A DNA stretch of 64,000 bases, taken from positions 682,001-746,000 of the forward strand of contig NZ_CP076129.1 in assembly GCF_018736065.1 (NCBI RefSeq), in the 5' to 3' direction. This document shows positions 5,203 to 58,569 of the stretch, piece by piece. The notes below the pieces were generated by a model that had not been told where the DNA came from, ran no database searches, and saw only the letters and a program-made list of their open reading frames with translations. The translations under genes and the position numbers were made by a program. Origin of the DNA: Flammeovirga kamogawensis. Lineage in GTDB: Bacteria > Bacteroidota > Bacteroidia > Cytophagales > Flammeovirgaceae. Position 1 is the first letter of the stretch. Every line of letters starts with the position of its first letter.

Positions 5203-5271
5203 TAAATGTAAATAAAACACTATAACAGATATTTAATACTCTATTAATCAACTATTAACCAAAGATTAATG
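5203..5271 (-). promoter_or_regulatory. Promoter with five 11-bp-spaced TTAAT heptamers
   Basis: Read toward the gene starting at 5159, heptamers CATTAAT, GGTTAAT, GATTAAT, TATTAAA and TGTTATA begin exactly 11 bp apart (plus-strand starts 5265, 5254, 5243, 5232, 5221). A -7-like box TACATTTA (5210-5203) begins 17 bp after the start of the last heptamer. This is one base off the 16-bp register seen at other promoters in the window. It is the most regular array found and a candidate operator for the SARP-type regulator encoded next door. Confidence 0.7.
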
Positions 5272-5318
5272 ACTACACTATATATTGATTATCAATAACT
5301 TACCTAGGTATTTTCTTA

Positions 5319-7955
5319 CTAAATCTCATGCGATGTTAGGTCTGATTTAAGAAACTCATTATAATCTAAATCAAATTTTTCATTATATAATAAAGAGTAT
5401 TCTTGTTCAAATTTTTCGAACGTATCCTTTGCCATACTGTGCATTCCTTGCAGAGTATAGATTTGGCATTTTATATGAATTGCTTCTTCATTTAAAGCAT
5501 CATATTTTAATATTAAATCACTTATTTTAAGTTTCTCTTTTACTGTTAACGTAATACTATCGCTAATCAAATAATTATGTAACTTTTCAATTATTCCATT
5601 TATAATTTGAGCCATCATTTCCTCCATCCAAGGATACTCAGTACCAAACAATAGTTTACCGTTTTTCAAGATTTTTGTAATCTCTTTAAGGTTCTCTTCT
5701 GACTGCTCTTTTTCTAGTAATTCTTTAAGGTCAAAAAGTGGAAAAGTTACCGTTTTATCAAACTTAAGATTCCAGAAGTCTCCTGTTTTAACAAGGTTAA
5801 TATTACCAATTAACTTAAAAAGTTGTTTTAACTTGGCAATATTTACACTTCTATTATTTCTTGCTTTTTTAAGCGGCATATCACTCCAAAATACCTCTGT
5901 CATTTGATCTACCGTTACACCTCTCCCATTGTGGAATTGTGATAAGATAATCAATAAGAAAATCTGCTTAATAAGTGGTGTAAATTTATTAGAAATATCA
6001 TTACCGTTTTCATCAATTATACGGAAACCACCAAAGAAATTAATTACCGACGTTGCTTTAATATCTTCTTGTAGTTGCTTTATCTCTTGGGATTCTGCTG
6101 CTACTTTTTCTTCTTCTACCTCAACAACAATCTTATCTTTTACTATAGGTAATTTCTTTTCAGAAACCTTAGGTTCAACTTTTATTGTTGTTACTTGTTC
6201 TTTTTCAGCAACTATACTTTTACGCGTCTTGTATTTATATAATGCAAAAGCTACAATACTTAAAAGCAAAGTTCCAATCAAATAGAAAATCCAACTTAAA
6301 CCTTTATCATTAGCAGTAACAACTTGAGTTTGTTCTTCAAAATTCATAAAGTTACCCCCTGTAACATCCAAGGCATATATGTCTACTTTAGTCTTTTTCC
6401 CTTTTCTATTTAACACTATAGAGTACAACTTTTGGTACTCCTTGTCATATTTCAACTCTATAGTTGTTTGCGTATCAAAAAATTCAAAAGGAATATCATT
6501 TGCTATTACTTTAACTTTTCTTGTTGTAATATCAAAAAGCTTCAGTTTTAAATTATTCTTACGCACATGGTTATCAAATGTAAGTGCTAAAAACTGATTT
6601 TTAGCTGTATCCACAACTATATTTCTTGAAACTACAAATGATTCATCTGTTGTTTCCCAAGTTGCTATTTTTCTCGTTTTATGTGTGTTTTCATCAAAAT
6701 CATAAAGATCATAATAGTTTTCTGGGTGAGCTATTTGTTTACCCGTCTTACTACCATATCCGCCAAAAATAAAGTGATGTCCATTGTTTGCTCTTCCACT
6801 ACCTGCAAAATATCTAGGTGATATCTTATCGCCCTTAAAAGATAGATTCTCGAAGGATAATTTATTTAAATCAATTTCTGAAAAGTTATCAGAATATTCA
6901 TAATTACCATACCCTCCAAAAAACAATAGTTCCGTTTGTTTATCATTAATCCAACTTATATGTTGAGTTGTACTTTTTTTATAAGGAAACTCAATAGTTG
7001 CTTTATTCATCTTACTATCTTCCACCCCAAATCGATAAAAATCATTAGTAATAAAGTTATAAAAAATAAGGTCTTTATTTTTCTTCTCTACAACACGTAA
7101 TTTTGAATGATTAAGAAATGGATAATTTCCTGATGTAACGTATACAGGATGTTCTTGATACATATCTTTTCTAAAAAGAGTATCATTTTTCATGAAATAA
7201 TAGTAAGAATATTGTTCGTTAAAATAGAATAAAGAACCATCAATTGCTCTTTTATCTACTTTTTCCCACTTTGATTGTAGTTCGTTTAGCCAAATTCCGT
7301 TAGTAAGTACCCCGTTATAAATCTCGCCTTGTTTACAATTTACAATGGTTCCATTTTTTTCGTTTAATGGCCATTCTAGTTTTTGATTATCTAATTGTAG
7401 TTCAATATTTCTAATAGTGATAGGGGCAACATCATGTACCTTAAAGTATGGGTTGTTATTGGCTCCAAAATAATATTTAAGATTTGTAAATCTCTGTATA
7501 TCAGATAATACTATAGTTTTACTTTGATCTCCAATGGTTAAGCTAATTTTATTCTCAGGTATATTAACTTCTAATCTTAATTTCTTCCACTCGTTTAATG
7601 CTTTTTTCTGATCTTTAAAATTAAACTGAATTGGAGTAATATCATGGTCATATATTAGGCTAAAATTATAATTATCTGGATTATTATAATTGTAGACAAT
7701 ATCAATATTCCTATGGTTACTATCAATTATTCTTAATATGTAACCAAAATAATGTTTACGGGTTTTATTAAATAAAATATCTGTTGATAAGGTCATCAAG
7801 TCATTCGCATTAACTTTACTTTCTTCTAATAAAATTAACGACGTACGTTCTTCTAAGTCATGATCATGACTCTTAAATTTAACCCCTCCTTGGTTTTGTG
7901 CGAATAAAGAAGAAGAAATGATAGTTAAAAATATAGTAAATAAAAAGTGCTTCAT
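5319..7955 (-). CDS. Transmembrane one-component regulator: LamG/kelch sensor with SARP-type (wHTH + BTAD) output
   Basis: Start chosen at ATG 7955 (878 aa): it gives a clean signal sequence (MKHFLFTIFLTIISSSLFAQ), and a TACCTTTG box at 8000-7993 would leave an in-frame upstream ATG at 7982 almost no 5' leader. Residues ~25-200 look like a concanavalin/LamG fold. Residues ~330-450 carry kelch-like FFGGYG and FGGYG repeats. A membrane segment lies at about 552-574, followed by a charged linker. Residues ~635-735 resemble an OmpR/SARP winged helix and ~740-875 the helical bacterial transcriptional activator domain. The predicted topology puts the sensor in the periplasm and the DNA-binding domain in the cytoplasm, as in other membrane one-component regulators. 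It is the only recognisable PUL-type regulator here, and lies between the SusCD operon and a co-regulated secreted protein. Its ligand is unknown, presumably a glycan fragment. Confidence 0.82.
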   Translation of the reverse strand: MKHFLFTIFLTIISSSLFAQNQGGVKFKSHDHDLEERTSLILLEESKVNANDLMTLSTDILFNKTRKHYFGYILRIIDSNHRNIDIVYNYNNPDNYNFSLIYDHDITPIQFNFKDQKKALNEWKKLRLEVNIPENKISLTIGDQSKTIVLSDIQRFTNLKYYFGANNNPYFKVHDVAPITIRNIELQLDNQKLEWPLNEKNGTIVNCKQGEIYNGVLTNGIWLNELQSKWEKVDKRAIDGSLFYFNEQYSYYYFMKNDTLFRKDMYQEHPVYVTSGNYPFLNHSKLRVVEKKNKDLIFYNFITNDFYRFGVEDSKMNKATIEFPYKKSTTQHISWINDKQTELLFFGGYGNYEYSDNFSEIDLNKLSFENLSFKGDKISPRYFAGSGRANNGHHFIFGGYGSKTGKQIAHPENYYDLYDFDENTHKTRKIATWETTDESFVVSRNIVVDTAKNQFLALTFDNHVRKNNLKLKLFDITTRKVKVIANDIPFEFFDTQTTIELKYDKEYQKLYSIVLNRKGKKTKVDIYALDVTGGNFMNFEEQTQVVTANDKGLSWIFYLIGTLLLSIVAFALYKYKTRKSIVAEKEQVTTIKVEPKVSEKKLPIVKDKIVVEVEEEKVAAESQEIKQLQEDIKATSVINFFGGFRIIDENGNDISNKFTPLIKQIFLLIILSQFHNGRGVTVDQMTEVFWSDMPLKKARNNRSVNIAKLKQLFKLIGNINLVKTGDFWNLKFDKTVTFPLFDLKELLEKEQSEENLKEITKILKNGKLLFGTEYPWMEEMMAQIINGIIEKLHNYLISDSITLTVKEKLKISDLILKYDALNEEAIHIKCQIYTLQGMHSMAKDTFEKFEQEYSLLYNEKFDLDYNEFLKSDLTSHEI

Positions 7956-7992
7956 CGATAGTAAGTGTTTAAAAAAATACAACCAAAATGGT

Positions 7993-8450: not shown

Positions 8451-10751
8451 CTAAATATTTATATCCTGCTTCTTAAAAGCATTTTTGTTTGGCTCATCAG
8501 TCATATAAAATTCCAATGTTTTACCAGCCATAATATCTTTATGATCTATAAATGGTTTATCCAACGGAACTCCATCTAAAACTAGCTTATCAATATATTT
8601 ATTTTTATAGCTATTATTATGTGCCACTATTTCGAATGTTTTTCCATTCTCAAGATTTACTTTTACTTGATCAAATAATGGGCGTCCGATTGTATAAGTT
8701 GTCACTCCTGGGCTCATTGGATAGAAACCCATACTACTTAAGATATACCATGCCGACATTTGTCCACAATCTTCATTACCAATTATTCCTGCAGGTGTTG
8801 CTTCATAATGATTATTCAATAAATAATCTGCCATATATTGTGTTTTATACTCTGCACCAATGTAGTTATACATATAAGCAATATGATGACTTGGTTCGTT
8901 TCCGTGGGCATACTGTCCAACCATTCCAGAAATATCATTACTTACATCATTTCCTTCTAGTTTAGAACTTGTCATGAAAAGAGTGTCTAACTTTTCTTCC
9001 ATTAATCTTTTACCACCAATTAATGTTGCTAAGCCTTCTACATCATGCGGTACATACCAACTCCACTGATAAGCATTTCCTTCTGTGTAGTCATCCTTAC
9101 GGTGTTTACTAAATCTTGGATTGAAAGGCTCTCTCCATCCTCCTGTACTTAATTTACCACGCATAAAACCAGTTTCTGGATCATAATATTGTTTATACCT
9201 TTGTGATCTCTCAAGGTATTCTTCATATACTTTGTCTTTACCAAGTTCTTTAGCAAATAAGGCTATACAATAATCATTGTAAGCGTATTCTAAAGCTTTA
9301 GTTACAGATTCATTTTCAAGATCAGCTGGAATATAGCCTAAAGAGTCATTATATAATTTAGCATTTGGCATTAGCTTCTCTTTAACTGATGCAGAATGTG
9401 CTACAAAATCTAAATCTCTAGAAAATGTACTCGTTTCTATCATTGCTTTAAAAGCCTTATCCACATCAAAGTTTTTATTCCCTTTTCTATAGGCATCCAC
9501 CATAACAGGTACTGCGTGGTATCCGGTCATTGTTCCTGTATAATTTCCTGCTAACTCCCACTTTGGTAAGATGCCACCTTCATCATATTTTCTCAATAAT
9601 GTTTGTATGTATTTTTCATTTTGAGAAGGATCGACGATAGTTAATAAAGGATGGAAAGCTCTGTAGGTATCCCATAATGAGAAAACTGTATAAGAGTCAT
9701 AATTCTCATCTTTCTTTATTTTTCCATCTAAAGTTCTGTATCTATGGTCTGCATCAGAATAGTTCATTGGAGCAATAAAAGAATGATACATAGAGGTATA
9801 AAATATCTCTTTTTGTTCCTCATTTTTACCCTCCACATCAATCAAGGCTAATTTTTCAGACCACATTAACTCCGCTTTCTCTTTTTGTGCATAAAAGTCC
9901 CAATCTTTAATATCTGAGAAGAGGTTATTTTTAGCTCCAGCAATATCAACATTGCTAATCCCTACTTTTACCTTTACTTTCTCTCCTGCTTTTGTGCTAA
10001 AGTTTAAAACTGCTTTTGCATTTTTACCTTCGTAGTTTTCTCCTTCAACCAACTTATCATTTCCTAAAATATAGGACTTAAATGGCTTATCAAATTTTGC
10101 ATAGAAATAGATATAATGTTCTTTTGCCCATCCTTTAGTATATTTCATACCTGCAATTTCTGTATCACTAATCACTTTTATTTCGTGCTTAGGGTTTCTA
10201 TGCATATGAATAGTAGGAGATAAATCGATAATTACCCCTGCCTCATCAGCTTCTGGGAAAGTATATTGATGAAAACCTACTCTCGGCGATGCTGTTAATT
10301 CAACATCAATATCGTAATCTTCTAATTTTACGTTGTAGTAACCAGGTGAAGCACTCTCCTGTTCATGAGAGTAACGTGATCTATAACCACTATCAGGATC
10401 TGAAGGATCTCCTTGAGATAACTTTGCTGTACCTGTAAAAGGCATCATCAAGATATCTCCCATATCACCAATTCCTGTTCCAGATAAATGCGTATGAGAG
10501 AAACCAACTATTGATGAATCCTCATAATAATAGCCACCACATGCATCCCAACCTTCAAATCTTGTATCTGGACTTAATTGCACCATACCATTAGGTGTAG
10601 TTGCACCAGGAAAAGTATGTCCATGAAAACCCGTTCCAATAAATGGGTCTACATAAGACATTGCATTTGAAGTGTTTTCTTTCTTCTCTTCTGTTAACTT
10701 CTGACAACTAAATGTCCCGAGAAGTAACAGTACTAATAAATTCCTTTTCAT
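8451..10751 (-). CDS. GH92 alpha-mannosidase lipoprotein
   Basis: A 766-residue GH92 exo-alpha-mannosidase of normal family length. The N-terminus MKRNLLVLLLLGTFSCQ is a lipoprotein signal with a lipobox Cys. Family hallmarks include YVDPFIGTG, TFPGATTPNGMVQLSPDTR and GFSHTHLSGTG near the N-terminus. The TEGNAYQW motif carries Glu557, matching the position of the catalytic acid in characterised GH92 mannosidases, and GNEDCGQMSAW carries Asp661 in the catalytic-base region. A Glu rather than Gln at the acid position is consistent with action on ordinary mannosides. Enzymes of this family use Ca2+ and remove terminal alpha-mannose; the exact linkage cannot be read from sequence. The start codon directly abuts the stop of the upstream gene, making it the last gene of the SusCD operon. 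The product is probably anchored in the periplasm or on the cell surface. Confidence 0.95.
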   Translation of the reverse strand: MKRNLLVLLLLGTFSCQKLTEEKKENTSNAMSYVDPFIGTGFHGHTFPGATTPNGMVQLSPDTRFEGWDACGGYYYEDSSIVGFSHTHLSGTGIGDMGDILMMPFTGTAKLSQGDPSDPDSGYRSRYSHEQESASPGYYNVKLEDYDIDVELTASPRVGFHQYTFPEADEAGVIIDLSPTIHMHRNPKHEIKVISDTEIAGMKYTKGWAKEHYIYFYAKFDKPFKSYILGNDKLVEGENYEGKNAKAVLNFSTKAGEKVKVKVGISNVDIAGAKNNLFSDIKDWDFYAQKEKAELMWSEKLALIDVEGKNEEQKEIFYTSMYHSFIAPMNYSDADHRYRTLDGKIKKDENYDSYTVFSLWDTYRAFHPLLTIVDPSQNEKYIQTLLRKYDEGGILPKWELAGNYTGTMTGYHAVPVMVDAYRKGNKNFDVDKAFKAMIETSTFSRDLDFVAHSASVKEKLMPNAKLYNDSLGYIPADLENESVTKALEYAYNDYCIALFAKELGKDKVYEEYLERSQRYKQYYDPETGFMRGKLSTGGWREPFNPRFSKHRKDDYTEGNAYQWSWYVPHDVEGLATLIGGKRLMEEKLDTLFMTSSKLEGNDVSNDISGMVGQYAHGNEPSHHIAYMYNYIGAEYKTQYMADYLLNNHYEATPAGIIGNEDCGQMSAWYILSSMGFYPMSPGVTTYTIGRPLFDQVKVNLENGKTFEIVAHNNSYKNKYIDKLVLDGVPLDKPFIDHKDIMAGKTLEFYMTDEPNKNAFKKQDINI

Positions 10752-11798
10752 TTAATTTTTCTTTGTCTGATTTCTTAATAATTGTAGAGAACTACTACCA
10801 TAACTATCAGCAGGTTCTAGTTGTGTATTAAAATTCCAATCGTTAAAAGAGTTAACTATTATAGTTCTTGAAGGACCTATATTCTTTTTAGCTACATTTA
10901 GAATAGACCAAAAGAAATTTGTATCTCTTTCTATGATATATGTTGATGCATTTGGATTACTAATTTTTGGATTAATAGAAGGTGCTACTGTTGGAATAAG
11001 TTCAATGCCCTCTTTATCCATATAATAATCTTTGCTATACTGCCAATGTTGATCTAGAGATTGTGGTAAGAAAACATGTCTATCGTACCATGCATTATTA
11101 AACATGTTTGTAAAAGTTACTGCATCTAAAGCATTAAAATAATAATGTTCAAATCTTGCTGGAGGTGTCCAACCGGTTTGTTCACCAGTTAAATACAAAT
11201 CATACCCCAACGCGCTCATTTCCTCTCTTAATTCATGGTAAACAAGTTCTAAACTATCACAGTAAAATTGATTTGCTGCAATTATATTTACCACATATTT
11301 ACCGTCAACTTTTTGATAAGTGGGTTGATCAAAATAAGGTATCATATCTTTAAAAGATTGAATGAAGTCCTCTTTCTTACCCTGTCCCTCTAAAGTATTT
11401 TCCTTTGTTAAGTTCATTTGAGCGAAATTATAACGCAAGGCAAAGTTTAGAAGACTATCTGTATTTTGATTAAGGAAAGCGGATAAGATATCATTATCTG
11501 CATTTACAGTAGGATAAGAATACCTAAATATAAAATAATCTATTGCTGCAGAGTCTGCCCATAAAATATGTTGTTTCATGGCTTCTTCATCTCCATTTAA
11601 GTAGTGTCCTGCCAAAGGAACTTCTTCAATATTCGAACTCCAATTATTCACAACATATAATGCACCAACAGTGTAATCTTCTGTAACAGGTACTTCTTCA
11701 ATATCATAACTAATTAGATGATCTTCTGCTGTAATTTCTTCTTGCTGGCAAGAAAACAAGCCTAAAGCAATAAAAAGAATACTATAAATGTTTTTCAT
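10752..11798 (-). CDS. GH99/WbsX-like lipoprotein with degenerate catalytic motif
   Basis: A 348-residue lipoprotein (MKNIYSILFIALGLFSCQQ) encoded between SusD and GH92, 11 nt after SusD. Its layout resembles GH99/WbsX-type (beta/alpha)8 proteins: an early YFIFRYSYP segment, a central VIPTVAPS-like strand and a C-terminal SFNDWNFNTQLEPADSYG block. In active GH99-like proteins the last block reads like NEWxEGTxxEP, with two glutamates three residues apart. Here these align with Asp and Phe, so ordinary GH99 catalysis looks lost. It may act as a surface glycan-binding protein, since this slot after SusD is often filled by SusE/F-type binders, or it may have another activity. The fold assignment is by motif only. 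Tight spacing on both sides shows it is an integral part of the operon. Confidence 0.7.
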   Translation of the reverse strand: MKNIYSILFIALGLFSCQQEEITAEDHLISYDIEEVPVTEDYTVGALYVVNNWSSNIEEVPLAGHYLNGDEEAMKQHILWADSAAIDYFIFRYSYPTVNADNDILSAFLNQNTDSLLNFALRYNFAQMNLTKENTLEGQGKKEDFIQSFKDMIPYFDQPTYQKVDGKYVVNIIAANQFYCDSLELVYHELREEMSALGYDLYLTGEQTGWTPPARFEHYYFNALDAVTFTNMFNNAWYDRHVFLPQSLDQHWQYSKDYYMDKEGIELIPTVAPSINPKISNPNASTYIIERDTNFFWSILNVAKKNIGPSRTIIVNSFNDWNFNTQLEPADSYGSSSLQLLRNQTKKN

Positions 11799-11809
11799 TT
11801 CTTATCTCT

Positions 11810-13519
11810 TTAAAGTTCTTCTAAAATTTTATAGTCCACTCCTTGAGCATCTAACTCTTCAACAGTACTTCCGTACCAGTGGCTTAAAAGGTCATTATTC
11901 ATATCAGGTTGCATTGCTCCCCAATCTTTCCATTCTCGGTTTTTAGAAAAAATTAATGGAACATCTAGGTAGTCAACTCCTCCTAATAAACTTACGCCCT
12001 CATTATACCCTACTCCATTCAAACTCATTTCAGACGAAGGATACACCATTCTTTCAGGAACATTTGTACCTAATCCACCTCTATTTAAAGCGTTAAAATG
12101 AGGAGGGATATCGAAATAATCAGTTCTTCTAATTAAACACCATCCATCAAACGGTTGGAAATAACCATCAATCCATCTTTGTGTAATTACTTGTTGTATT
12201 GGGCCTCTACTAATTTTTGACGAAACTATACCTCTAAAATCTCTCACTCCTGCAGAAGAAGAACCCCATCTTACCCCATCATTAGATAAATATTCGGTCA
12301 CCTTATCTGCCATACCTTTTTTATGGAACGAGGCATAAATACCTTCTTCATATAAAGATTTAGGTGTTCTGCTTCCTCCCCAATTTAACAATCCTGCTTC
12401 TGCTCTAATAAAGCAAGTTTCTGCGTACCCTATAAAAGTAACCTCTAAATCTGCTGCTAAATATTCCTCACCAACATTAGAAAAACTTTCTCTTCCAAGA
12501 CCCGCATAAGGATTGTCTTGATCGTCCATTAACCAATTATCATGAAATTGAAGTGTTTTTGGTGCTCCCAAATAAGGGGCAACATATTGTGCTATCACTT
12601 TAGACCCATCAGCACGAGATAAGGTATCTAAAATATAATAATCAAGTTCCGGTTTTTGGGCATATTTAGATATTCTTGGGTCTTTCAAATCCCTCATAAA
12701 AGTAAGGAAATAATGACCTGTTTTAAAGGATACTATATTCCTTACAAAAACGTATCTTTTATAAAACCAGCTCCAGTTTTCTTCTGCTGTTCCCCAAGAT
12801 GCCGTTACAGCTTCCTCTTCACTACTAATAAAATCTTGCTCTCTCTGTAAAGCCAATTTTCCAAACTCTCTACATTCTGAAGAAGAATTTTGATAACGTA
12901 AAGCTAATTTTAGAATCAAAGTATTGGCAAATTTTTTCCACTTTGAGATGTCCCCTTGAAAAATGGGCTCATTCATTGTATCCTTTGTAATGTCTAGTGT
13001 ATCATACACCTCATTCACTTGGGTAAGAAGATCAATAATAATTTCTTCTTCGCTATCATATCCCATTGATAAAGCTCCAGTTAAACTCTCTGTATAAGGC
13101 ACTGGTCCCCATGTACCTACAACTACAGACATTACATACGCTTTCCAAATTTTGAAAATTCCTACTCTGTTTACGTAATCTTCTTTGCCTTCAAATTGCA
13201 CAATCACATCTTCCACATTTTGTAAGATATCTACATAATTGTATTTCCACCAATTTGTAATATTTGGATGCGAATAAAAATAAGCTGCAAAAGTACCTCC
13301 ACCCATAGATTGATGATGCGCGTATTGAATGTACATTTGGTTAGCCATATCTCCCTTAATGTAATCTAGACTTCTCTTTACTACACCAGGAAATACTATT
13401 TCAGGTTCAATCGTTTGATACTCGTGTCTATTGGTATTGATTTCTTCAAACTGATCAGTACATGAGTTAAAAGATAACAAGAAGATCAATACACCTAAAC
13501 TATATATATATGTTTTCAT
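11810..13519 (-). CDS. SusD/RagB family outer-membrane glycan-binding lipoprotein
   Basis: A 569-residue SusD-type lipoprotein whose signal ends at a lipobox Cys (LSFNSCTDQF). The opening EINTNRHEYQTIEPEIVFPG and the helical body belong to the SusD-like group with PEYVFP-type N-termini, and length is normal. Members sit on the cell surface as a lid over the SusC barrel and capture oligosaccharides. It follows the SusC gene by 12 nt and precedes the GH99-like lipoprotein by 11 nt, so all four genes are probably one transcript from the promoter at 16846-16913. No frameshift or truncation is seen. The bound glycan cannot be deduced from this protein alone; the operon suggests a mannose-containing one. 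Confidence 0.93.
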   Translation of the reverse strand: MKTYIYSLGVLIFLLSFNSCTDQFEEINTNRHEYQTIEPEIVFPGVVKRSLDYIKGDMANQMYIQYAHHQSMGGGTFAAYFYSHPNITNWWKYNYVDILQNVEDVIVQFEGKEDYVNRVGIFKIWKAYVMSVVVGTWGPVPYTESLTGALSMGYDSEEEIIIDLLTQVNEVYDTLDITKDTMNEPIFQGDISKWKKFANTLILKLALRYQNSSSECREFGKLALQREQDFISSEEEAVTASWGTAEENWSWFYKRYVFVRNIVSFKTGHYFLTFMRDLKDPRISKYAQKPELDYYILDTLSRADGSKVIAQYVAPYLGAPKTLQFHDNWLMDDQDNPYAGLGRESFSNVGEEYLAADLEVTFIGYAETCFIRAEAGLLNWGGSRTPKSLYEEGIYASFHKKGMADKVTEYLSNDGVRWGSSSAGVRDFRGIVSSKISRGPIQQVITQRWIDGYFQPFDGWCLIRRTDYFDIPPHFNALNRGGLGTNVPERMVYPSSEMSLNGVGYNEGVSLLGGVDYLDVPLIFSKNREWKDWGAMQPDMNNDLLSHWYGSTVEELDAQGVDYKILEEL

Positions 13520-13531
13520 TGTTTACTCTAA

Positions 13532-16500
13532 TTAAAAGTTTATTCTAAAATCAACACCAAGTGTACTTGTTGGCGGTAATGATCCGATTTCAATACCTTG
13601 GCCATTACCAGAGTAAGATGCTGCCTCAGGGTCAATACCTCTAGGTGTATTTTGATAAATAATCCATAAGTTTCTACCTACAGCAGCAATACGCATTCTC
13701 TTGATTTTAAATTTCCTCAATAATTTCTGTGGTATGTTATACCCAATAGAAACTTCTCTTAGTTTTACATATGATGCATCGTACGTATTGTATTCATTTG
13801 CATTCGACGTTCCTAATTGATAGAATAATTGAGGACTCATATAAGCATCGTTCTTCTTTACTGCTTCCCATTCTCCTGTTTCAGGATTTCTTTCAGCAAC
13901 CCAAGCATCTAACATAATACCTTTGCTTCTGTCAAGGTCTCCGTAAGCTCTTCCATCTTCACCAATACCTGCTCTTTCTGAGTTATTTTCACCCAAAATC
14001 ACGTTACTGTACCAATAGTCATCTCTACCTTCTAATGATGATTTTGTGTTCCCCCAAGTTTCTGCTCTAGAATACGTTTCACTAAATATCTGTCCTCCAA
14101 TCTTCGCATCAATTAAAACGCTTAAATCAAAATTCTTATACTTAAATGAATTACTTATTGCTCCTAACCAATCTGGCTGTGCATTACCAAGAATTTGTTC
14201 TTGATCTTGAATCGGAACTCCATTAGATGTTACTAATTTTCTTCCTTCATCATCAGTTAACCATTTCGAACCTCTAATTACCCCAAATGGTTGTCCTACT
14301 TCTGCATTTACAGAAATATTACTCACACCTCTGTATCTAATTTGGGTAATATCAACCCCAGATTGCTCATCTTTATATAAAGAATTTACTATTGATGTGT
14401 TCTTTGACCAGTTGACATTCATATCCCAACTAAAAGCCTTACTATCAATTATTTTAGTTCCTAAAACCAACTCAATACCAGAGTTTTGTACCTCACCTGC
14501 ATTAATCATCTTATAGTCATAACCAGAACCCTTTGGCATGTTAATTCTAATAATCTGATTTGAAGTTACATTGTCATAATATGTTGCATCTAAGGATACT
14601 CTATTTCCAAAAAACTTTAATTCAGTACCTAATTCCCAAGATGTTGTACTTTCTGGTTTTAGGTCTGTATTTCTTTTCAATGTTTGGTTTGTTACCCAAG
14701 CATAACCATTGTAATTACCACCATAATTATATGTATTATTGATTTGGTTGAAATCTGTATCATTTCCTACTTGAGCAAGTGATCCTCTAAGTTTACCAAA
14801 AGAAAGGATACTACTTGACATTTGTAATGCATTTGTGAAGATAAAAGAAGTACCTACACTCGGATAGAAATAAGAATTATTACCTTCAGGTAAAGTAGAA
14901 CTCCAGTCATTACGAGCTGATATATCTACATAAAGAATATCATTATAACCAATAGATGTAGTGGCAAAAACGGAGTTAATTCGTTTTTTCTCTTCTGTTT
15001 GGTATACTTCAGGATAAGATGCTGCATTAGCACTACTACCAAAATCTGGAGCTACTAAAGAATTAAATTCTGTTCTAGAAAAATTCATTACTCTATCAAA
15101 CCTACTTGCTCCAACGTTTACTTGAATATCAAACTTACCTTTTCTCTTAGTATAGTTTAAAAACGCTTCATAATTCCAAACAGCAATATCTCTATTAAAG
15201 GTACTGTAATAACCGTCCGGATCATTTACAGATCCTTTATTATTAAATAATTCACCTTTTCTAAACTGTACATCACCACCTATTCTAGTTTTGAACGAAA
15301 GCCCATCAACAATTTTAGCATTTAACGTAATTGTAGGTAAAATTCTATCCATTTGGTCATTATTTGAATTCTCATAAATAGCCCAATAAGGGTTAGAGAA
15401 TGTATTTCTTTGACCAAATTCATTTCCGTTAGCATCTTTCCATGGTTTTAAATCTTCTAAGTTGGCATTTCTATGCATAAAGGTAAATACATAATAAGGG
15501 TTATGAACACTACCATTTTTTTGCATTCTATTGTCTGTTTTTTCCCCTACATACGTCATTTTAGTATCTACATCTAAAAAATCTGTAATCTTAGAAGTGG
15601 CTCTTATATTAAAAGTATTTCTTACCTGTAAATTCTGAGTATCAACTATATCATCAGCATTTAAATGCGTATATGAAATATAAACTGAGCTATTCTTTCC
15701 ACTTTTTTGTAAAGAGATAGAATTCGTCATAGTACTTCCTCTTTGGAAGAAATCTTTTATATTATTTTCATTTACATCATATGTAGTAGGCTGCCCATTG
15801 TAACCGATAACATCCTGCCCTAACATTGGTGAACCCCAACTTCTATTGTATTGGTTTAAAAGAGGTAAACCTGTTTCAGGATCTCTATATCGTTCAGAAG
15901 CAGCTAAACGAAAAGCATTACCTGCTCCATATTTATTTTGATAATCAGGATATTGTGCTACTTCACGGATTTGATAATTAAAGCCATAAGACACTCCCCA
16001 CCCTTTATTCTTTTTACTACTTTTCTTTGTTGTAATCATGATTACACCATTTGTAGCTCTAGAACCATATAATGCAGCAGCATTTGCTCCTTTTAATACT
16101 TGTATATCTGCGATATCTTCTGGGTTAACAAAACTTGCACCTCCACCATAGTCAATATTATTATCAGATCCACCAACAGAAACACCAGAATCACCAGAAC
16201 CGCTTTCAATCGGCACACCATCGATTACATATAAAGGTTGATTATCTTTTGCTAAAGAAGATACACCTCTTATTACTACTCTACTAGATCCCGTTGGAGA
16301 GTCTGATGCAGTAACTTGAACACCAGCTACTTTACCAGATAAGTTTGTTACAAAATCAGATTGTTTACCTTGAAGTAACTCCTCTGTATCTACCTGCTGC
16401 GTTGCATAACTTAAACTTTCTTTATCTCTATCAATTCCTAAAGCTGTTACAACAATTTCTTTTAAATGTTTGGTATCTTCTTTAAGAGTTACACGAACCG

Positions 16501-16771
16501 ATGTTTGATACCCAACTTTCACTTCCTTTGGTTGCATACCAATAAATGAAAATACAAGAATGTCTTCTACACTAGCTTGTAAACTAAAATTACCTTCTAT
16601 ATCAGTTACCGCACCTTTGGCAGTACCTTTAATAAGAACATTCACACCAGGTAAAGGAATGTCAGTTGCTTCGTCAAACACTACACCATTAACAATATGT
16701 ATTTCATTTTGGGCTTGTGTTAATGAATAAATACTGAGTAATAATAGTAGAGTTGTAATTATTCTTTTCAT
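13532..16771 (-). CDS. SusC/RagA TonB-dependent outer-membrane transporter
   Basis: A 1,079-residue SusC-type TonB-dependent transporter. It has a signal peptide (MKRIITTLLLLLSIYSLTQA) and a carboxypeptidase-regulatory-like domain at about 27-112 (GVNVLIKGTAKGAVTDIEGN). The segment LKEIVVTALG follows, then a plug domain with VVIRGVSSL, PLYVIDGVP and the SusC signature LKGANAAALYGSRATNGVI. A long beta-barrel ends in a terminal Phe (GVDFRINF), as expected for BAM-dependent insertion. It imports oligosaccharides into the periplasm with TonB/ExbBD energy, in complex with SusD. It is the first gene of the SusC-SusD-GH99like-GH92 operon, and its promoter faces the divergent GH99-like operon across a 333-bp region. 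There is no N-terminal FecR-anti-sigma-interacting domain, which fits control by the separate SARP-type regulator rather than an ECF sigma pair. Confidence 0.96.
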   Translation of the reverse strand: MKRIITTLLLLLSIYSLTQAQNEIHIVNGVVFDEATDIPLPGVNVLIKGTAKGAVTDIEGNFSLQASVEDILVFSFIGMQPKEVKVGYQTSVRVTLKEDTKHLKEIVVTALGIDRDKESLSYATQQVDTEELLQGKQSDFVTNLSGKVAGVQVTASDSPTGSSRVVIRGVSSLAKDNQPLYVIDGVPIESGSGDSGVSVGGSDNNIDYGGGASFVNPEDIADIQVLKGANAAALYGSRATNGVIMITTKKSSKKNKGWGVSYGFNYQIREVAQYPDYQNKYGAGNAFRLAASERYRDPETGLPLLNQYNRSWGSPMLGQDVIGYNGQPTTYDVNENNIKDFFQRGSTMTNSISLQKSGKNSSVYISYTHLNADDIVDTQNLQVRNTFNIRATSKITDFLDVDTKMTYVGEKTDNRMQKNGSVHNPYYVFTFMHRNANLEDLKPWKDANGNEFGQRNTFSNPYWAIYENSNNDQMDRILPTITLNAKIVDGLSFKTRIGGDVQFRKGELFNNKGSVNDPDGYYSTFNRDIAVWNYEAFLNYTKRKGKFDIQVNVGASRFDRVMNFSRTEFNSLVAPDFGSSANAASYPEVYQTEEKKRINSVFATTSIGYNDILYVDISARNDWSSTLPEGNNSYFYPSVGTSFIFTNALQMSSSILSFGKLRGSLAQVGNDTDFNQINNTYNYGGNYNGYAWVTNQTLKRNTDLKPESTTSWELGTELKFFGNRVSLDATYYDNVTSNQIIRINMPKGSGYDYKMINAGEVQNSGIELVLGTKIIDSKAFSWDMNVNWSKNTSIVNSLYKDEQSGVDITQIRYRGVSNISVNAEVGQPFGVIRGSKWLTDDEGRKLVTSNGVPIQDQEQILGNAQPDWLGAISNSFKYKNFDLSVLIDAKIGGQIFSETYSRAETWGNTKSSLEGRDDYWYSNVILGENNSERAGIGEDGRAYGDLDRSKGIMLDAWVAERNPETGEWEAVKKNDAYMSPQLFYQLGTSNANEYNTYDASYVKLREVSIGYNIPQKLLRKFKIKRMRIAAVGRNLWIIYQNTPRGIDPEAASYSGNGQGIEIGSLPPTSTLGVDFRINF

Positions 16772-16845: not shown

Positions 16846-16913
16846 CAAATGTAGTTTTGTGTGTTAATTGAATCATAGTAACCAATTAACACAGTATTAA
16901 TAGACTATTTAAG
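16846..16913 (-). promoter_or_regulatory. SusC promoter: TACATTTG -7 box with upstream 11-bp repeat array
   Basis: In gene sense, CTTAAAT, TATTAAT, TGTTAAT, TACTATG (weak) and AATTAAC start every 11 bp (plus-strand starts 16907, 16896, 16885, 16874, 16863). A perfect TAnnTTTG box, TACATTTG (16853-16846), begins 16 bp after the start of AATTAAC. The predicted 5' leader is about 70 nt. No good TTG -33 element is seen, which fits an activator-dependent promoter whose operator covers that region. Confidence 0.75.
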
Positions 16914-17021
16914 CTTAAAAAATTGTTGGTATATACCAGTAGTAAAGTTTAAAAATGATTGTTTTTAGCTGTTTTTCAAAAAAAAAGATACTTTCTCTAT
17001 TAATATTTATATTATTGACCC

Positions 17022-17067
17022 TATTAATGTGTGGTTAATACTTTTTTATAGCCAAAAAATATCTTTA
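17022..17067 (+). promoter_or_regulatory. Divergent promoter of the GH99-like operon with 11-bp repeats
   Basis: TATTAAT (17022-17028), GGTTAAT (17033-17039) and a weaker TTTTATA (17044-17050) are spaced by 11 bp. A -7-like TATCTTTA (17060-17067) begins 38, 27 and 16 bp after their starts, the same register as the SusC promoter. An isolated TATTAAT at 16998 is out of phase. The predicted transcript start lies about 30 nt before ATG 17105. Confidence 0.65.
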
Positions 17068-25758: not shown

Positions 25759-25815
25759 CAAACGTAAAAAATTAGGTTAATTAGTTTCTAACTATAGCTT
25801 AATATGGACTTAATA
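25759..25815 (-). promoter_or_regulatory. Sulfatase promoter: TACGTTTG -7 box with four 11-bp repeats
   Basis: In gene sense, TATTAAG, TATTAAG, AGTTAGA and AATTAAC start 11 bp apart (plus-strand starts 25809, 25798, 25787, 25776). TACGTTTG (25766-25759), a perfect TAnnTTTG, begins 16 bp after the start of AATTAAC, exactly as at the SusC promoter. A further CATTAAT upstream is one base out of phase. Confidence 0.75.
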
Positions 25816-38396: not shown

Positions 38397-38792
38397 GATC
38401 GTTAATGTTTGATTATTTAAAGTTTGCTTCTGGATGAATCGTTAATCGTCAGCATTAGTTTGCTCATCGAGAAATTTATTTATGTCACAATGTTAATAGT
38501 TGTAAATTATTTAAGCCAAATTATTTGTAAGAATATTATAGCAAAAGCTTTAAGGTTTATATTTTTTGGTGGAATAGTGATGTTTAAATAAAAATAGGTA
38601 TAAAGATTTAACGTGAATATTAAAGAAAATACAATTTCATAATGGTAAAAAATTCGTTTATAATAGGATTTAAATAAAAATTAAACAAGGTTTAAATAAT
38701 TAGAATTTAGTATTTAACAAGAAACTAATTAACAAACTTCAAAAAACTTTTGATATAGAATAATTTATTTATGTTATTGTACTACAAATTTA
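38397..38792. other. Intergenic stretch upstream of the defence cassette
   Basis: A divergent region between the coiled-coil gene (-) and the PLD gene (+). ATTAACGAT occurs as a spaced repeat near 38399 and 38446 (read on the minus strand), close to the coiled-coil gene, and might be an operator. No TAnnTTTG box in the period-11 register and no RNA gene were recognised. Confidence 0.4.
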
Positions 38793-38816
38793 ATGGTGTG
38801 TTACCCTTTTTTTATT

Positions 38817-39509: not shown

Positions 39510-39518
39510 TAATTATAT

Positions 39519-41147
39519 ATGAAAAATTTATGGTTTTTTAAAAGTAGTGGTAGTAATGCTGTTTATGGAGATGGTAAAGACTGGTACGATGATGAAATTG
39601 CTCAACAATATGAATTTGATAATAATGTTGCAAATAGCCAACAAATAAAAGAAGGTGATTCAGTAATTATTTTTGATAAAATAAAAGCTTTAGGTATTGC
39701 TGAAGTTATTAAACTTGATAAATGGGCAACTACAAAAAAATTATATCGATGTCCACATTGCAAAAATACAACATTTGATAAGCGAAAAACAATCAAACCG
39801 AAATATAAATGTGGAAAATGTAAAAGTGAGTTTGAAGAACCACTTTCTGAACTAAAAGACATTACAAAATTTCGTGTATCGTATGAAGATTCTTTTAAAA
39901 GAATTGAAAAACAAATACTTATTACCTCAATAAAAGCAGAAGACAGATATTTTCCTAAAAATTATAATAGAAACATGTCTATACAACTTCTTGACCCATC
40001 GTTAGTTACTGATTATGATTTAGATGTAATTAAAACGAGAACTTCTTTTGATACTAAGACAAATGATATGATTTCAAATTTTAATGAAGACCTGAGTAAT
40101 TCAAATTTATTTTTTCATAATTTATTAATTACTAGATATATTTCATCACTAATCACCAAACCATTTGTCCTTCTTTCTGGTCTTTCAGGTTCAGGTAAAA
40201 CCAAGCTTGCTCAATCTTTTGCTATGTGGATTTGTGAAGATAGTTCTCAATATGAAATTGTAGCAGTAGGTGCAGATTGGACAAATAGAGAACCTTTATT
40301 AGGATATCCTAATGCATTAAACAGTAAAGAATATATTAAGCCTGACAATGGTGCTTTAGATTTGATTACCAATGCAAATGCTAATTCTGAAAAACCTTAT
40401 TTTCTCATTTTAGATGAAATGAATTTAAGTCATGTTGAAAGGTATTTCGCTGACTTTTTAAGTGCCATGGAATCTAAAGATGAGATAAAACTTCATTCTT
40501 CAGATGATATCAAAAAAGTTCCAAAGAAAATCACTTTACCTAAGAATCTGTTTATTATTGGAACAGTTAATATTGATGAGACAACTTATATGTTTTCTCC
40601 TAAAGTATTAGATAGGGCGAATGTAATTGAATTTAGATTAACAGAGGATGATATTGATAACTTCTTTAAGTTGGATGACAATATTGATTTAGAGTTACTT
40701 AAATCTAAAGGAAGTAATCAAGTGCAAAATTTTCTTGATCTTGTAAATGAAAATTATACGATAAAAGATATTGTTTTAAAAGAAACTTTATTGAAAGCTT
40801 TTACTGAACTCAAAAAGGTAGGAGCTGAGTTTGGATATAGAAGTGCAAATGAGATTACAAGATTATGTGGAGTTATTAATTCAATAAACTCTTCTATTGA
40901 TATTAATGGACAAATAGATATCGCAATTATGCAAAAACTATTACCAAAACTACATGGATCAAGAAGAAAACTTATTCCTGTTTTGAATGCGTTGGGTAAT
41001 TTGTGTTTAGAAACGGAACTAAAAGAAGTCAATGAATTTGAAGATCTCCTTGGTAAAAAAATACGTTTTCCAATTTCATTTGAAAAACTGAAAAGAATGT
41101 ATAAAAATGTAGTTGATAATGGTTTTGCAAGTTACGCTGAAGCATAA
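39519..41147 (+). CDS. McrB-like AAA+ NTPase with N-terminal PUA/EVE-like domain and zinc ribbon
   Basis: A 542-residue motor subunit. The N-terminus (LWFFKSSGSNAVYGDGKDWY ... GDSVIIFDK ... GIAEVIKLDKW) resembles PUA/EVE-type readers of modified bases, with a zinc ribbon inserted (CPHC at 78-81, CGKC at 98-101). The AAA+ part has Walker A GLSGSGKT (221-228), Walker B LILDEMN (Asp299, Glu300) followed by the McrB-type HVERYFADFLSAME, and the sensor block GTVNIDETTYMFSPKVLDR. McrB proteins normally hydrolyse GTP and drive a partner nuclease along modified DNA. The gene is followed after 3 nt by the McrC-like gene and preceded by the PLD gene. Together they form a type IV restriction-like antiphage cassette; specificity is unknown. 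Confidence 0.88.
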   Translation: MKNLWFFKSSGSNAVYGDGKDWYDDEIAQQYEFDNNVANSQQIKEGDSVIIFDKIKALGIAEVIKLDKWATTKKLYRCPHCKNTTFDKRKTIKPKYKCGKCKSEFEEPLSELKDITKFRVSYEDSFKRIEKQILITSIKAEDRYFPKNYNRNMSIQLLDPSLVTDYDLDVIKTRTSFDTKTNDMISNFNEDLSNSNLFFHNLLITRYISSLITKPFVLLSGLSGSGKTKLAQSFAMWICEDSSQYEIVAVGADWTNREPLLGYPNALNSKEYIKPDNGALDLITNANANSEKPYFLILDEMNLSHVERYFADFLSAMESKDEIKLHSSDDIKKVPKKITLPKNLFIIGTVNIDETTYMFSPKVLDRANVIEFRLTEDDIDNFFKLDDNIDLELLKSKGSNQVQNFLDLVNENYTIKDIVLKETLLKAFTELKKVGAEFGYRSANEITRLCGVINSINSSIDINGQIDIAIMQKLLPKLHGSRRKLIPVLNALGNLCLETELKEVNEFEDLLGKKIRFPISFEKLKRMYKNVVDNGFASYAEA

Positions 41148-41150
41148 AAT

Positions 41151-43412
41151 ATGACAAAAGATCAGATTTCTATACCTATAAATGATAAAGCTGAGTTAAT
41201 CATTACACCTCAAGCTGTTGATAAACCAATTCTATATGAGATTGATAAAGAAGAAGCATATAGAAATGCAGAATCACCTTATCAATTAATAGAAGGTTTT
41301 ACTTACGATTGGGAAATTATCAATGAAGAATACCATCTTGAAGTTGATAAAAATATAGTTTTTAATACTTCAAACTATATTAACAGAGGGGTGATCAAAC
41401 CTAATATATTTGTTGGAACTCTCTCTATTCCTGTTTTTAAAAATAGTACTTTTATTAAAACAATTGAGATAGAAGTACGGTCTTTAAAAGCGTCTTATAG
41501 AAAAGATTATCGTCAGATGTTAACTGATATTTCAGAATATTGCACTGATTTATTAATGCAGACTACTTCTCCTGCTTCTCAACAATACACTGTTGATCAT
41601 GATAATAGGTCAGAAACGTTATATCAGAAATTTTCTTTTGTTAAATCAATTATTGACTCCGATGAATTTGAAGAGGCGATCTATCAAATTACTGAATTAC
41701 CAAACTCAAAATGGGAAGTATTTGAAGAAGAACAAGATATTCGTAGAGTAGGTAGAATTACAAATAAAATAGCTAAACGGTTTGTAAAAGTATCAAATAG
41801 AATTCCTATAAATGATGAATTATTAAAAAGAAATTTTGGAAGTTTAAATTCTTTACCAAAATCAGTAAGTTTAAAAAAGACAAGAGATACCGTTGATACT
41901 ATAGAAAATCAGTTTATCAAGTTTGTACTGGAAACGTTTTTGTTTTTTTGTGAAGATTTAAAACCTAAACTCGCTAAGAAGAAGAATAGATTTAATAAAG
42001 AGATAAATCAGGTCATCTATAAGCTAGAGGATTATTTACAACATAATATTTTTCGAGATATTAGCCAATTGAAAATGATGCCTTTAAACAATCCTCTATT
42101 ACAAAGAAAAGGAGGGTATAAAGAAGTATACAAATCTTGGCTGATGTTTGATCTTGCTGCTAAACTTTTTTGGAAAGGTGGAGATGATGTATATCGAGCA
42201 GGTAAAAGAGATGTAGCTACATTATATGAATATTGGGTCTTTTTTGCACTTCTAGAGATTATTAAACAAATTTTTGAAATAAAAAAAACCGATATATCAT
42301 CTTTAATAAGTGATACAAAAGATGGTTTAGGACTACAATTAAAACAAGGTGTTCATACTGCTTTAGAAGGGAAATATATATCTGATCAGAGAGAGTTAAA
42401 TATCAAATTTAGTTTTAATAGAACATTCAGTAGAAAAAATAAAATTTCCGAAGAAGGAAGCTGGACAAAGCAAATGAGACCCGATTATACTATCACTTTG
42501 TGGCCCTCACAATTTTCGGAGAAACAAGCAATCGTAAATGATTTAATTACTCATATTCATTTTGATGCTAAATACAAGATAGCCAATATCACACAATTGT
42601 TAGGATCAGATAGTGAAGATGATTTTGATGAATCCTCAACATATAAGAGAGTAGATTTGTTAAAGATGCATGCTTATAAGGATGCAATTAGAAGGTCAAG
42701 TGGTGCATATGTTATTTACCCAGGTAAAAAAGAAAGTGATAAAATCAGAAGTTTTCATGAAATTTTACCTGGGTTAGGAGCTTTTCCTTTGAGACCAACT
42801 AGGGACAAGCAAGGATTATCTGAAATAAAATTATTTATCAAAGATGTTATAAAGCACTATCTTGACAGAACCTCTCAAAGAGGTAGTATAGAATTTCATA
42901 AGAACAGAATTCTAAAAGGAGGTAATAAAAAAGATGTATTGATTAAATATATCCCTGAATTACAGCCAAATAATAAATTACTTATTCCATCTGAAACAAA
43001 TGTAATAATTGGATATTATAAAAATGATAATCATTTAGCTTGGATATTGGAAACATGGGCTTATAATATAAGAGCAGATGCTGAAAGAAATGGAGGCATG
43101 CAATTGTCTCCTCAATTAATCTCTGCAAAATATATTTTACTTCATAATAGCTCAAAGTCCAATAATCAAGTTTTATTATTTGTGACTTCAAACGGACCTA
43201 AAGTCCAGTTAAAATCACAATTAGACGGTTATCCATCTTCAGATGGAAAAGATCATCAGTATTTTGTTTTTGATGTAGAAAAAGTAATTAACACAAAATT
43301 TCAAAGATATCATTTTGATATTAAAGAATTAGCAGGATTTACAAAAGAAAATCTTGATGGTTGTCCTTATGTAACAACTTTAGAAAAATTATTTTCTGTA
43401 TCAGATTCATAA
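41151..43412 (+). CDS. DUF2357/McrC-like PD-(D/E)XK nuclease
   Basis: A 753-residue protein. The N-terminal half resembles DUF2357 (beta-rich start, then RKDYRQMLTDISEYCTDLL and long helices). The C-terminal half carries a PD-(D/E)XK nuclease core with PDYT (Asp445) and HFDAKYK (Asp472, Lys474), then a conserved helix containing MHAYKDA. DUF2357 proteins are known partners of McrB-type AAA+ motors, taking the McrC place. It starts 3 nt after the McrB-like gene and ends 35 bp before the convergent beta-helix gene. A divergent C-terminal ~150 residues (from about 595) may be an extra sensor or a McrC-type finger. No mutation of the active site is apparent, so the cassette looks functional. Confidence 0.85.
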   Translation: MTKDQISIPINDKAELIITPQAVDKPILYEIDKEEAYRNAESPYQLIEGFTYDWEIINEEYHLEVDKNIVFNTSNYINRGVIKPNIFVGTLSIPVFKNSTFIKTIEIEVRSLKASYRKDYRQMLTDISEYCTDLLMQTTSPASQQYTVDHDNRSETLYQKFSFVKSIIDSDEFEEAIYQITELPNSKWEVFEEEQDIRRVGRITNKIAKRFVKVSNRIPINDELLKRNFGSLNSLPKSVSLKKTRDTVDTIENQFIKFVLETFLFFCEDLKPKLAKKKNRFNKEINQVIYKLEDYLQHNIFRDISQLKMMPLNNPLLQRKGGYKEVYKSWLMFDLAAKLFWKGGDDVYRAGKRDVATLYEYWVFFALLEIIKQIFEIKKTDISSLISDTKDGLGLQLKQGVHTALEGKYISDQRELNIKFSFNRTFSRKNKISEEGSWTKQMRPDYTITLWPSQFSEKQAIVNDLITHIHFDAKYKIANITQLLGSDSEDDFDESSTYKRVDLLKMHAYKDAIRRSSGAYVIYPGKKESDKIRSFHEILPGLGAFPLRPTRDKQGLSEIKLFIKDVIKHYLDRTSQRGSIEFHKNRILKGGNKKDVLIKYIPELQPNNKLLIPSETNVIIGYYKNDNHLAWILETWAYNIRADAERNGGMQLSPQLISAKYILLHNSSKSNNQVLLFVTSNGPKVQLKSQLDGYPSSDGKDHQYFVFDVEKVINTKFQRYHFDIKELAGFTKENLDGCPYVTTLEKLFSVSDS

Positions 43413-48752: not shown

Positions 48753-48838
48753 AATAACAGTATTCTAATAGTGTATTAATTGTCTATTAATCGATGATTA
48801 TAGGCTATTATTTACGCTGTATTAATTATTTATTAAAT
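48753..48838 (-). promoter_or_regulatory. Double 11-bp repeat array upstream of the giant beta-helix gene
   Basis: Gene-sense heptamers CTATAAT, GATTAAT, AATTAAT, TATTAGA and TGTTATT form one 11-bp-phased set (plus-strand starts 48797, 48786, 48775, 48764, 48753). ATTTAAT, AATTAAT and CGTAAAT form a second set just upstream, two bases out of phase. The -7 box is poor: TATCGATA at 48732-48725 lies in the expected register but lacks TTTG. The array ends 170 bp before the ATG. Confidence 0.6.
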
Positions 48839-58349: not shown

Positions 58350-58523
58350 TGTATATAGTTTACTCTTTTCTATAATTTCGATAGTACAATTTTAACGCAC
58401 ACCTATTAATAGCAGTATTGCCTATGTATTAATGAATTCTTAATCGAATGAAATAATAGTGTTATACAGCCGTTTTTAGTAAAAAACCTTCATAAAATTT
58501 TCAATCTTATACTTTTTAATTTC

Positions 58524-58569
58524 CATTAAGAGCTCATTAAGTTTTTTTTATTCCCTCTGTTTAGATTTG
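58524..58569 (+). promoter_or_regulatory. Promoter of the plus-strand sulfatase: TAGATTTG with two CATTAAG repeats
   Basis: CATTAAG at 58524-58530 and again at 58535-58541 are spaced by exactly 11 bp. A perfect TAnnTTTG box, TAGATTTG (58562-58569), begins 27 bp after the start of the second copy and 38 bp after the first. This is the same register as at the SusC and other promoters. The predicted leader to ATG 58596 is about 20 nt. Confidence 0.72.

Follow-up and report, generated by a model that had tools for sequence, protein, structure and literature searches.

Which protein reads the phased heptamers that precede the genes of a glycan locus in Flammeovirga kamogawensis? The stretch of DNA analysed here (the window: 64,000 nucleotides, positions 682001-746000 of contig 2 of the 6.97-Mb genome) carries genes for SusC, sulfatases and glycosidases. 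A preliminary description of its sequence had proposed that heptamers close to NNTTAAT recur every 11 bp upstream of these genes, in a fixed register to a TAnnTTTG-like -7 box, and that they resemble the sites of SARP activators. The array upstream of the glycan-locus genes was confirmed and extends far beyond the window. We consider it very probable that the arrays serve as operator for a transmembrane one-component activator of SARP fold that the locus itself encodes at 5319-7955. Direct support comes from the arrays themselves, their phase, their clustering at the locus, their co-occurrence with the regulator, and the predicted SARP fold and domain order of that protein.

Phased arrays at the promoters of the locus

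In the intergenic DNA of the window, 17 pairs of TTAA are spaced by 11 bp, compared with a mean of 2.1 and a maximum of 8 in 500 dinucleotide shuffles, and chains of three such units occur five times (mean 0.05, maximum 2). The window has five matches to the exact pattern TTAAN7TTAAN7TTAA, shuffles averaging 0.15 and never exceeding 2, and TTAA is also elevated at lags of 22 and 33 bp (9 and 7 pairs, about 2.6 expected per lag). Thirteen background stretches of the same genome, chosen like those of other Bacteroidota genomes at round coordinates, contained seven lag-11 TTAA pairs where about 9.4 were expected, i.e. no excess. When 4-mers seen at least six times are ranked at this lag, TTAA comes top in six of eight regulator-linked stretches; TAAT ties with it on contig 426 of G004 and AATT leads in the small contig 153 of G009 (G000 is the own genome, other G numbers are compared genomes). 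The arrays are thus far from equally frequent in shuffled DNA, the outcome that the preliminary description had named as speaking against an operator. Chance from AT-richness, which it had held to be a poor explanation of the phasing, is ruled out as their origin by the shuffles and the background stretches.

The arrays and boxes of the window are as follows (coordinates, strand, feature).

5233-5269, minus: operator array of gene 5159, with TTAA at 5233, 5244, 5255 and 5266; box TACATTTA (one mismatch) at 5203-5210, phase +1
16846-16853, minus: box TACATTTG of the SusC gene (16771) promoter, at distance 14 from TTAA
16864-16912, minus: operator array of the SusC gene, with TTAA at 16864, 16886 and 16897, then 16909 (12-bp step)
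17000-17038, plus: operator array of the GH99-like gene 17105, with TTAA at 17000, 17024 and 17035; box TATCTTTA (one mismatch) at 17060-17067
25759-25766, minus: box TACGTTTG of the sulfatase gene 25694 promoter
25777-25825, minus: operator array of the same gene, with TTAA at 25777, 25799, 25810 and 25822 (the last after a 12-bp step)
29762-29769, minus: box CACATTTG (one mismatch) of the promoter of the sulfatase-GH99 fusion gene (29708/29744)
29802-29827, minus: operator array of the fusion gene, with TTAA at 29802, 29813 and 29824
36936-36961, minus: array ahead of gene 36831, a near-copy of the one at 29802 within a 118-bp duplication (95% identical); box degenerate
38670-38695, plus: exact TTAA array ahead of the PLD/AAA/PDDEXK_7 genes, with TTAA at 38670, 38681 and 38692
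48776-48836, minus: two TTAA pairs (48776/48787, 48822/48833) upstream of gene 48583
58429-58443, minus: weak two-unit array (58429, 58440) of the divergent sulfatase gene 58349
58516-58540, plus: operator array of the sulfatase gene 58596, with TTAA at 58526 and 58537, plus 58516 (10-bp step); box TAGATTTG at 58562-58569

The repeat had been described as exact. The 11-bp pitch does not hold for all steps: 22 bp is common and 10, 12 and 24 bp also occur (58596, 25694, 17105). Exact boxes stand in phase at 16771, 25694 and 58596, as had been claimed; those of 17105 and 29708 are likewise in phase, but each carries one mismatch. The spacing of 17 given for the 5159 promoter proved right as an offset of +1, from a box that itself has one mismatch. 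At the 48583 promoter only the two TTAA pairs, about 190-250 bp upstream, could be recovered, with no in-phase box at zero or one mismatch. An in-phase box was also looked for at the 38670 array and none was seen; this array is probably a chance occurrence. In an alignment of the SusC promoters of G000, G003 and G004 the three TTAA units are identical and the linkers only partly conserved.

Distances between TTAA and box of 14, 25, 36 and 47 bp equal the 16, 27, 38 and 49 bp of the preliminary description, which were counted from the first base of the heptamer. For exact TAnnTTTG boxes at distances of 10-53 bp, a single phase of the eleven holds 17 of 39 pairs at the G000 locus and 42 of 75 in its relatives; in the background, one pair lies at distance 14, with a mean of 2.2 per distance. 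When one event is counted per box and similar promoters are collapsed, five of five events are in phase in G000 and 13 of 13 in all Flammeovirga regulator loci. At distance 14 the last heptamer NNTTAAT leaves a gap of 9 bp before TAnnTTTG, a motif that PMC7366714 gives as the -7 box of sigma-ABfr.

The arrays are concentrated at this locus. Nine of the 17 exact three-unit arrays of the genome, the 38670 array among them, lie within 62 kb of contig 2 (658802-720695); after merging of overlapping arrays, seven of 15 are found at the locus. The binomial probabilities for an 82-kb locus are 1e-13 (9/17) and 2e-10 (7/15). Upstream of the window the operator set reaches as far as position 658686 of contig 2. 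The whole-genome scan for array plus box that had been proposed was carried out with two units followed by TAnnTTTG at a free spacer of 6-36 bp and yielded 47 rows (control pattern: 65). All seven rows at the locus, representing six separate boxes, have a spacer of 10, 21 or 32 bp, and outside the locus 2 of 40 rows are in phase, with 3.6 expected. No exact array lies within 100 kb of any of the eight further GH92 genes in the genome, by which GH92 genes are ruled out as the driver of the arrays.

A SARP-fold membrane protein as candidate reader

5319-7955, minus: candidate reader protein, with signal peptide, beta domain, kelch propeller, transmembrane helix and a cytoplasmic winged helix-turn-helix (wHTH) plus BTAD-like domain

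The listed open reading frame of this gene (5319-7982) begins at TTG, and the ATG at 7955 is the likelier start. The signal peptide was recognised by eye, the N-terminal beta domain spans roughly residues 1-220 of the ectodomain model, and the kelch propeller is indicated by a Pfam match, an AlphaFold model (pLDDT 80.7) and Foldseek matches mostly to kelch domains. A simple scan for transmembrane helices found one membrane helix in 32 of 36 homologues, with basic residues mostly after the helix as judged by eye. Kelch-type propeller domains are all that Pfam detects at E<=1e-3; neither a histidine kinase nor a receiver nor an AraC-type helix-turn-helix domain is among them.

The C-terminal domain was modelled with high confidence (pLDDT 93.2) as an OmpR-type winged helix followed by an all-helical BTAD-like part, which is the order of SARPs. 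Foldseek against the PDB returned four matches only at E<=1e-3, namely AfsR initiation complexes (8k60 twice, 8hvr) and EmbR (2fez), with best E values of 2e-4 for AfsR and 6e-4 for EmbR, a query TM of 0.56-0.61 and an identity of 12-15%. The domain is the sole SARP-fold domain found in the genome (E<=1e-3) and sits at the array cluster. That a SARP-type regulator is encoded at the locus, as the preliminary description had stated, is thus borne out by the predicted AfsR/EmbR fold, though the Pfam models miss it. Sequence profiles gave little: among 50 family members BTAD was matched in five (best E 0.014) and Trans_reg_C in three (best E 0.043), all weakly; a profile search of the PDB by sequence returned EmbR (E 0.8) as the sole relevant one of four weak matches, and no match with a larger alignment; an NCBIfam scan gave a single weak, irrelevant match.

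Beyond this we infer what the ligand is and how its signal is transmitted, and also that the domains bind DNA, dimerise side by side and activate transcription. The periplasmic beta domain and kelch propeller would sense an oligosaccharide from an alpha-mannan-like sulfated glycan, and the signal would pass through the single membrane helix. In the cytoplasm, the wHTH-BTAD domains would then bind side by side on the same face of the DNA, one per 11-bp unit with the core ATTAAT. The array would stop one fixed step ahead of a -7 box of the sigma-ABfr type; from this fixed step we propose that the last protomers overlap the -33 region, where they would recruit RNA polymerase in an AfsR-like manner.

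This arrangement most resembles that of the Streptomyces SARPs (AfsR with its afs box, ActII-ORF4, DnrI), with which it shares the wHTH-BTAD fold by predicted structure (8k60/8hvr), direct repeats at 11 or 22 bp and a proximal repeat 8-9 bp from the core box (PMC10936776, PMC10972967). SARP sites, as PMC10936776 describes them, consist of direct repeats spaced by 11 or 22 bp; 8 bp separate the 3' repeat from the -10 element, and a side-by-side SARP dimer contacts sigma region 4. The SARP-like layout that had been suggested agrees with these values, since the steps here are mostly 11 or 22 bp and the gap after NNTTAAT is 9 bp. Together with the predicted structure and the co-occurrence, this geometry argues for the SARP-type interpretation, in which the protein would bind and activate. 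However, the SARP-fold domain is C-terminal here, behind the membrane helix and the kelch ectodomain, and not N-terminal as in AfsR; moreover, the system belongs to Bacteroidota and glycan-utilisation genes, with an AT-rich ATTAAT unit, a -7 box of the sigma-ABfr type and a domain unrecognised by Pfam. In view of the C-terminal placement behind a membrane and the missing Pfam BTAD match we speak of a SARP-fold regulator and not of a strict member of the Streptomyces family.

EmbR of Mycobacterium has the same wHTH-BTAD fold (2fez). It differs in carrying an FHA domain and is not known to have a membrane sensor. The pho box of PhoB, an OmpR-family regulator, also consists of 11-bp direct repeats with a 7-bp core; here, the core sequence is different, no receiver domain was found, and the model has BTAD-type helices after the wHTH. 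Control of polysaccharide utilisation loci is usually assigned to hybrid two-component systems (HTCS), extracytoplasmic function (ECF) sigma factors or SusR-type regulators. PMC3878776 treats HTCS and SusR-like regulators of such loci; for alpha-mannan loci in B. thetaiotaomicron it names HTCS whose motifs are two 16-bp sites separated by a 5-bp spacer. HTCS_Man-1, -2 and -3 of Bacteroides are similar in being sensor-regulators of SusC/D and mannosidase genes with direct-repeat sites, theirs predicted by comparative genomics in that account, whereas here no kinase domain was found by Pfam and the sites are arrays of 11-bp units. The TAACTGA heptamer repeats of Beggiatoaceae are not the same thing: the word is different and a post-transcriptional role is suggested in PMC4679880.

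No description of a SARP-fold regulator combined with an 11-bp array was found in the open literature, subscription papers and preprints lying outside this search. If the assignment is true, it adds a regulator-operator pair for polysaccharide utilisation loci and places an antibiotic-activator fold behind a membrane sensor; promoters that depend on the unusual sigma factor of Bacteroidota might then be activated in a SARP-like geometry. The sites can be picked out from sequence, which would allow regulons to be predicted directly wherever another genome encodes the regulator, and the array promoter offers a compact, testable phase-locked promoter.

Recurrence of the arrays and rival explanations

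Homologues of the candidate reader (E<=1e-20) are present in nine of the 18 family genomes examined, the own genome included. For each locus the number of TTAA pairs at lag 11 was compared with the mean of the other lags. It is high at the loci of close orthologues, with 30 vs 7.0 in G000, 16 vs 1.6 on contig 6 of G003, 11 vs 1.2 in G007 and 10 vs 1.5 on contig 426 of G004, and also on contig 11 of G003 with its second, 43% identical regulator (22 vs 3.0); three contigs of G009 have 2, 4 and 3 pairs vs about 0.4. At the loci of distant homologues it is 2 vs 2.0 (contig 398) and 0 (contig 405) in G004 and 0 in two loci each of G011 and G012, and other 4-mers at 11-bp pitch near the distant homologues gave nothing convincing. 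The same arrays recur at close-orthologue loci of four other Flammeovirga genomes, and distant-homologue loci have little or none. Of the exact three-unit arrays, seven of ten in G003 lie within about 46 kb of its two regulators, 2 of 22 in G004 and 2 of 10 in G007 are at the locus, and 2 of 11 in G009 are on contigs with locus genes, not on that of the regulator. G005 and G006 have two and seven exact arrays and no regulator was found in either genome; none of the eight exact arrays of G008 and five of G010 is within 100 kb of a regulator homologue.

Outside this group a single-protein query for related loci found no relatives, and an alignment query of genome contigs found 183, from which 79 loci were kept. 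The relatives come from Mucilaginibacter, Dyadobacter, Pedobacter, Sphingobacterium, Chitinophaga, Emticicia and others at 26-30% identity, plus three Flammeovirga. Self-matches of 5-mers in the intergenic DNA of the 79 loci are commonest at lag 11 (744), followed by lag 8 (612) and by 250-450 for most others, and the lag-11 count exceeds the own mean in 68 of 79 loci. TTAAT/ATTAA is the leading word with 174 lag-11 pairs vs 13.2 expected, in 66 of the 76 non-Flammeovirga loci. The arrays are placed upstream of the regulator (59 vs 8.4), of SusC (34 vs 5.2) and of other genes (163 vs 20.7); spacers without a gene start have no array excess (5 vs 3.8). In six of these genomes, 12 arbitrary stretches gave 6 vs 4.5 and eight regulator loci 34 vs 5.5. 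The Bacteroidota loci are mutually related, so that these counts do not represent independent events.

Exact arrays were searched in the whole genomes of six of the 79 loci, the matches listed covering G018, G019, G020 and G022 in full and G021 in part. Within 40 kb of a regulator lie 3 of 23 in G018, 2 of 15 in G019, 2 of 10 (overlapping) in G020, 1 of 16 in G022 and, among the matches listed, at least five in G021 with its total of 32; the control pattern totals 5, 2, 21, 5 and 9 in these genomes, respectively. In G018, G019 and G020 an exact array is about 120 bp or less from a regulator. The family is sparse, as five of 296 genomes of an even phylum sample were positive at E<=1e-60 (own genome included); of the other four, G272, G259, G116 and G207, the first has a clean three-unit array.

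Arrays also occur elsewhere. Clusters of three exact TTAA arrays at 2427531-2445456 of contig 1 in G018 and 112060-118413 of contig 57 in G022 have no recognised regulator of the candidate-reader family nearby, and other regulators may use arrays of this kind. Nine of the 22 exact arrays of G004 are on a phage-like contig. TTTAAA-type 11-bp arrays, apparently unrelated to the regulator, are clustered at 6432721-6456818 of contig 1 in G018 and stand in short gene junctions on a phage-like contig (255) of G004 (L063-L064).

Read in the sense of transcription, the unit outside Flammeovirga is about TTTATTAATC. It is asymmetric: among 83 units from 32 dissimilar promoters, C at +5 occurs 33 times vs 6 on the reverse strand, and T at -2 42 vs 17. 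For Flammeovirga, ATTAAT alone stands out, with no sign of asymmetry. Of the 50 rows of alignment A3 (49 of the 79 loci plus the window; alignment A6 holds 31 plus the window), 33 have the recognition helix ARNNRSVNIAKLK and the rest variants of it; this helix carries different residues in homologues whose loci show little or no array. As a correlation the predicted recognition helix fits the heptamer, G259 being no neat fit. It appears probable to us, with less confidence than for the locus itself, that transmembrane one-component SARP activators form a class found across Bacteroidota, in which an external kelch sensor and a conserved 11-bp ATTAAT array phased to the sigma-ABfr -7 box would control alpha-mannoside (GH92/GH99) genes as an alternative to HTCS, a conserved NNR-containing recognition helix setting the heptamer.

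Several observations weigh against our assignment of the arrays to this protein. The window protein itself has no match to the Pfam models BTAD (PF03704) or Trans_reg_C (PF00486) at E<=5. Genome-wide, exact arrays are no more numerous than matches to the pattern read backwards (17 vs 21), so that only the clustering stands out, and in the relatives the total is clearly above the control in one of eight only, G004. Exact boxes are scarce, with 13 independent events from 69 array-bearing Flammeovirga promoters (divergent spacers counted both ways) and four from 192 in other Bacteroidota. The phase weakens if one mismatch is allowed in the box, to 5 of 17 events in G000, 13 of 48 in all Flammeovirga, and 10 and 11 of 51 in two neighbouring phases in other Bacteroidota. 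Outside Flammeovirga it is apparently 15+11n and not 14+11n, from three of four independent exact events, and the raw 18 of 23 in phase there are largely one Dyadobacter promoter repeated across orthologues. Distant-homologue loci of G008 (2 vs 0.7) and G010 (2 vs 0.9) have few TTAA pairs and a weak signal is possible. The second regulator of G018 has no exact array nearby; G116 and G207 possess the regulator but hardly any array (0 and 1 pair, respectively); in G259, whose helix has diverged, lag-11 TTAA is raised without forming a clean array.

A rival view is that the arrays are real operators read by a different factor, either an OmpR/PhoB-type protein that binds 11-bp direct repeats or one encoded elsewhere. 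PhoB-family regulators also use 11-bp heptameric direct repeats. The AfsR repeats at afsS are recognised by PhoP too, according to PMC10972967. Among the 26 locus proteins scanned, which are part of the set, no other transcription factor was recognised, a result that by its scope leaves some room for such a binder and in its outcome argues for the candidate reader. We nevertheless regard another binder as unlikely, because arrays accompany the close-orthologue regulators and are few or absent at the distant homologues, and are enriched 13-fold over 76 regulator-anchored Bacteroidota loci while the background of six genomes shows no clear excess.

Much less probable are phased AT tracts working without a specific protein, by bending DNA or as UP-like elements. 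The genome is AT-rich (32% G+C in the window) and A/T tracts phased at 11 bp do bend DNA, yet the signal is missing from dinucleotide shuffles and background intergenic DNA, is carried mainly by the one word TTAA/ATTAAT and not by A tracts, and clusters at one locus of the genome; in other Bacteroidota, though not in Flammeovirga, the unit is also asymmetric relative to transcription. We give least credit of all to the idea that a single promoter was recently copied around the locus. The arrays at 29802 and 36936 did arise in this way, but at the other promoters the linkers differ while units and phase hold, and the phase persists after similar promoters are collapsed. As a general cause duplication is rejected; it explains the 36936 copy only.

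Probable substrate and neighbouring genes of the locus

8451-16771, minus: genes behind the SusC promoter, namely SusC (13532-16771), SusD-like (11810-13519), GH99/WbsX-like (10752-11798) and GH92 alpha-mannosidase (8451-10751)

The SusD-like protein was named from position and sequence, the other genes from Pfam (GH92 E 9e-173; SusC TonB barrel E 5e-20). GH99 is below the Pfam cut-off at 10752 and 17081 and above it at 15342-16649 of L019. SusC/D together with GH92 and GH99-type genes, the gene content expected of an alpha-mannan utilisation locus, is thus present here. Across all other loci the homologues include SusC, SusD-like, GH92, sulfatases, GH99, flavin reductase, an FMN/4Fe-4S protein, a 615-aa protein and the regulator. 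In other Bacteroidota, Pfam found GH92 (10), TonB plug (9), GH95 (6) and GH99 (4) among 46 of the 126 array genes, selected after setting aside regulators and near-copies. From the GH92 and GH99-like proteins and the several sulfatases the substrate is likely a sulfated alpha-mannan-like glycan, apparently of algal origin. The fusion protein encoded at 25941-29744 combines sulfatase and GH99-like domains, the latter below cut-off, with a tail for type IX secretion.

The promoter region of this fusion gene is duplicated (29725-29842 and 36859-36976), the second copy standing upstream of gene 36831, and a 194-nt segment occurs in three copies at 30497-30690, 31647-31840 and 36653-36846 (72% and 92% to the reference copy). 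Both point to local rearrangement, beside a fragment of an IS30-like transposase named by eye. At 38793-43412, genes for PLD-like, AAA and DUF2357-PDDEXK_7 proteins are inserted within the glycan locus, which we take to be McrBC-like and perhaps of a defence function.

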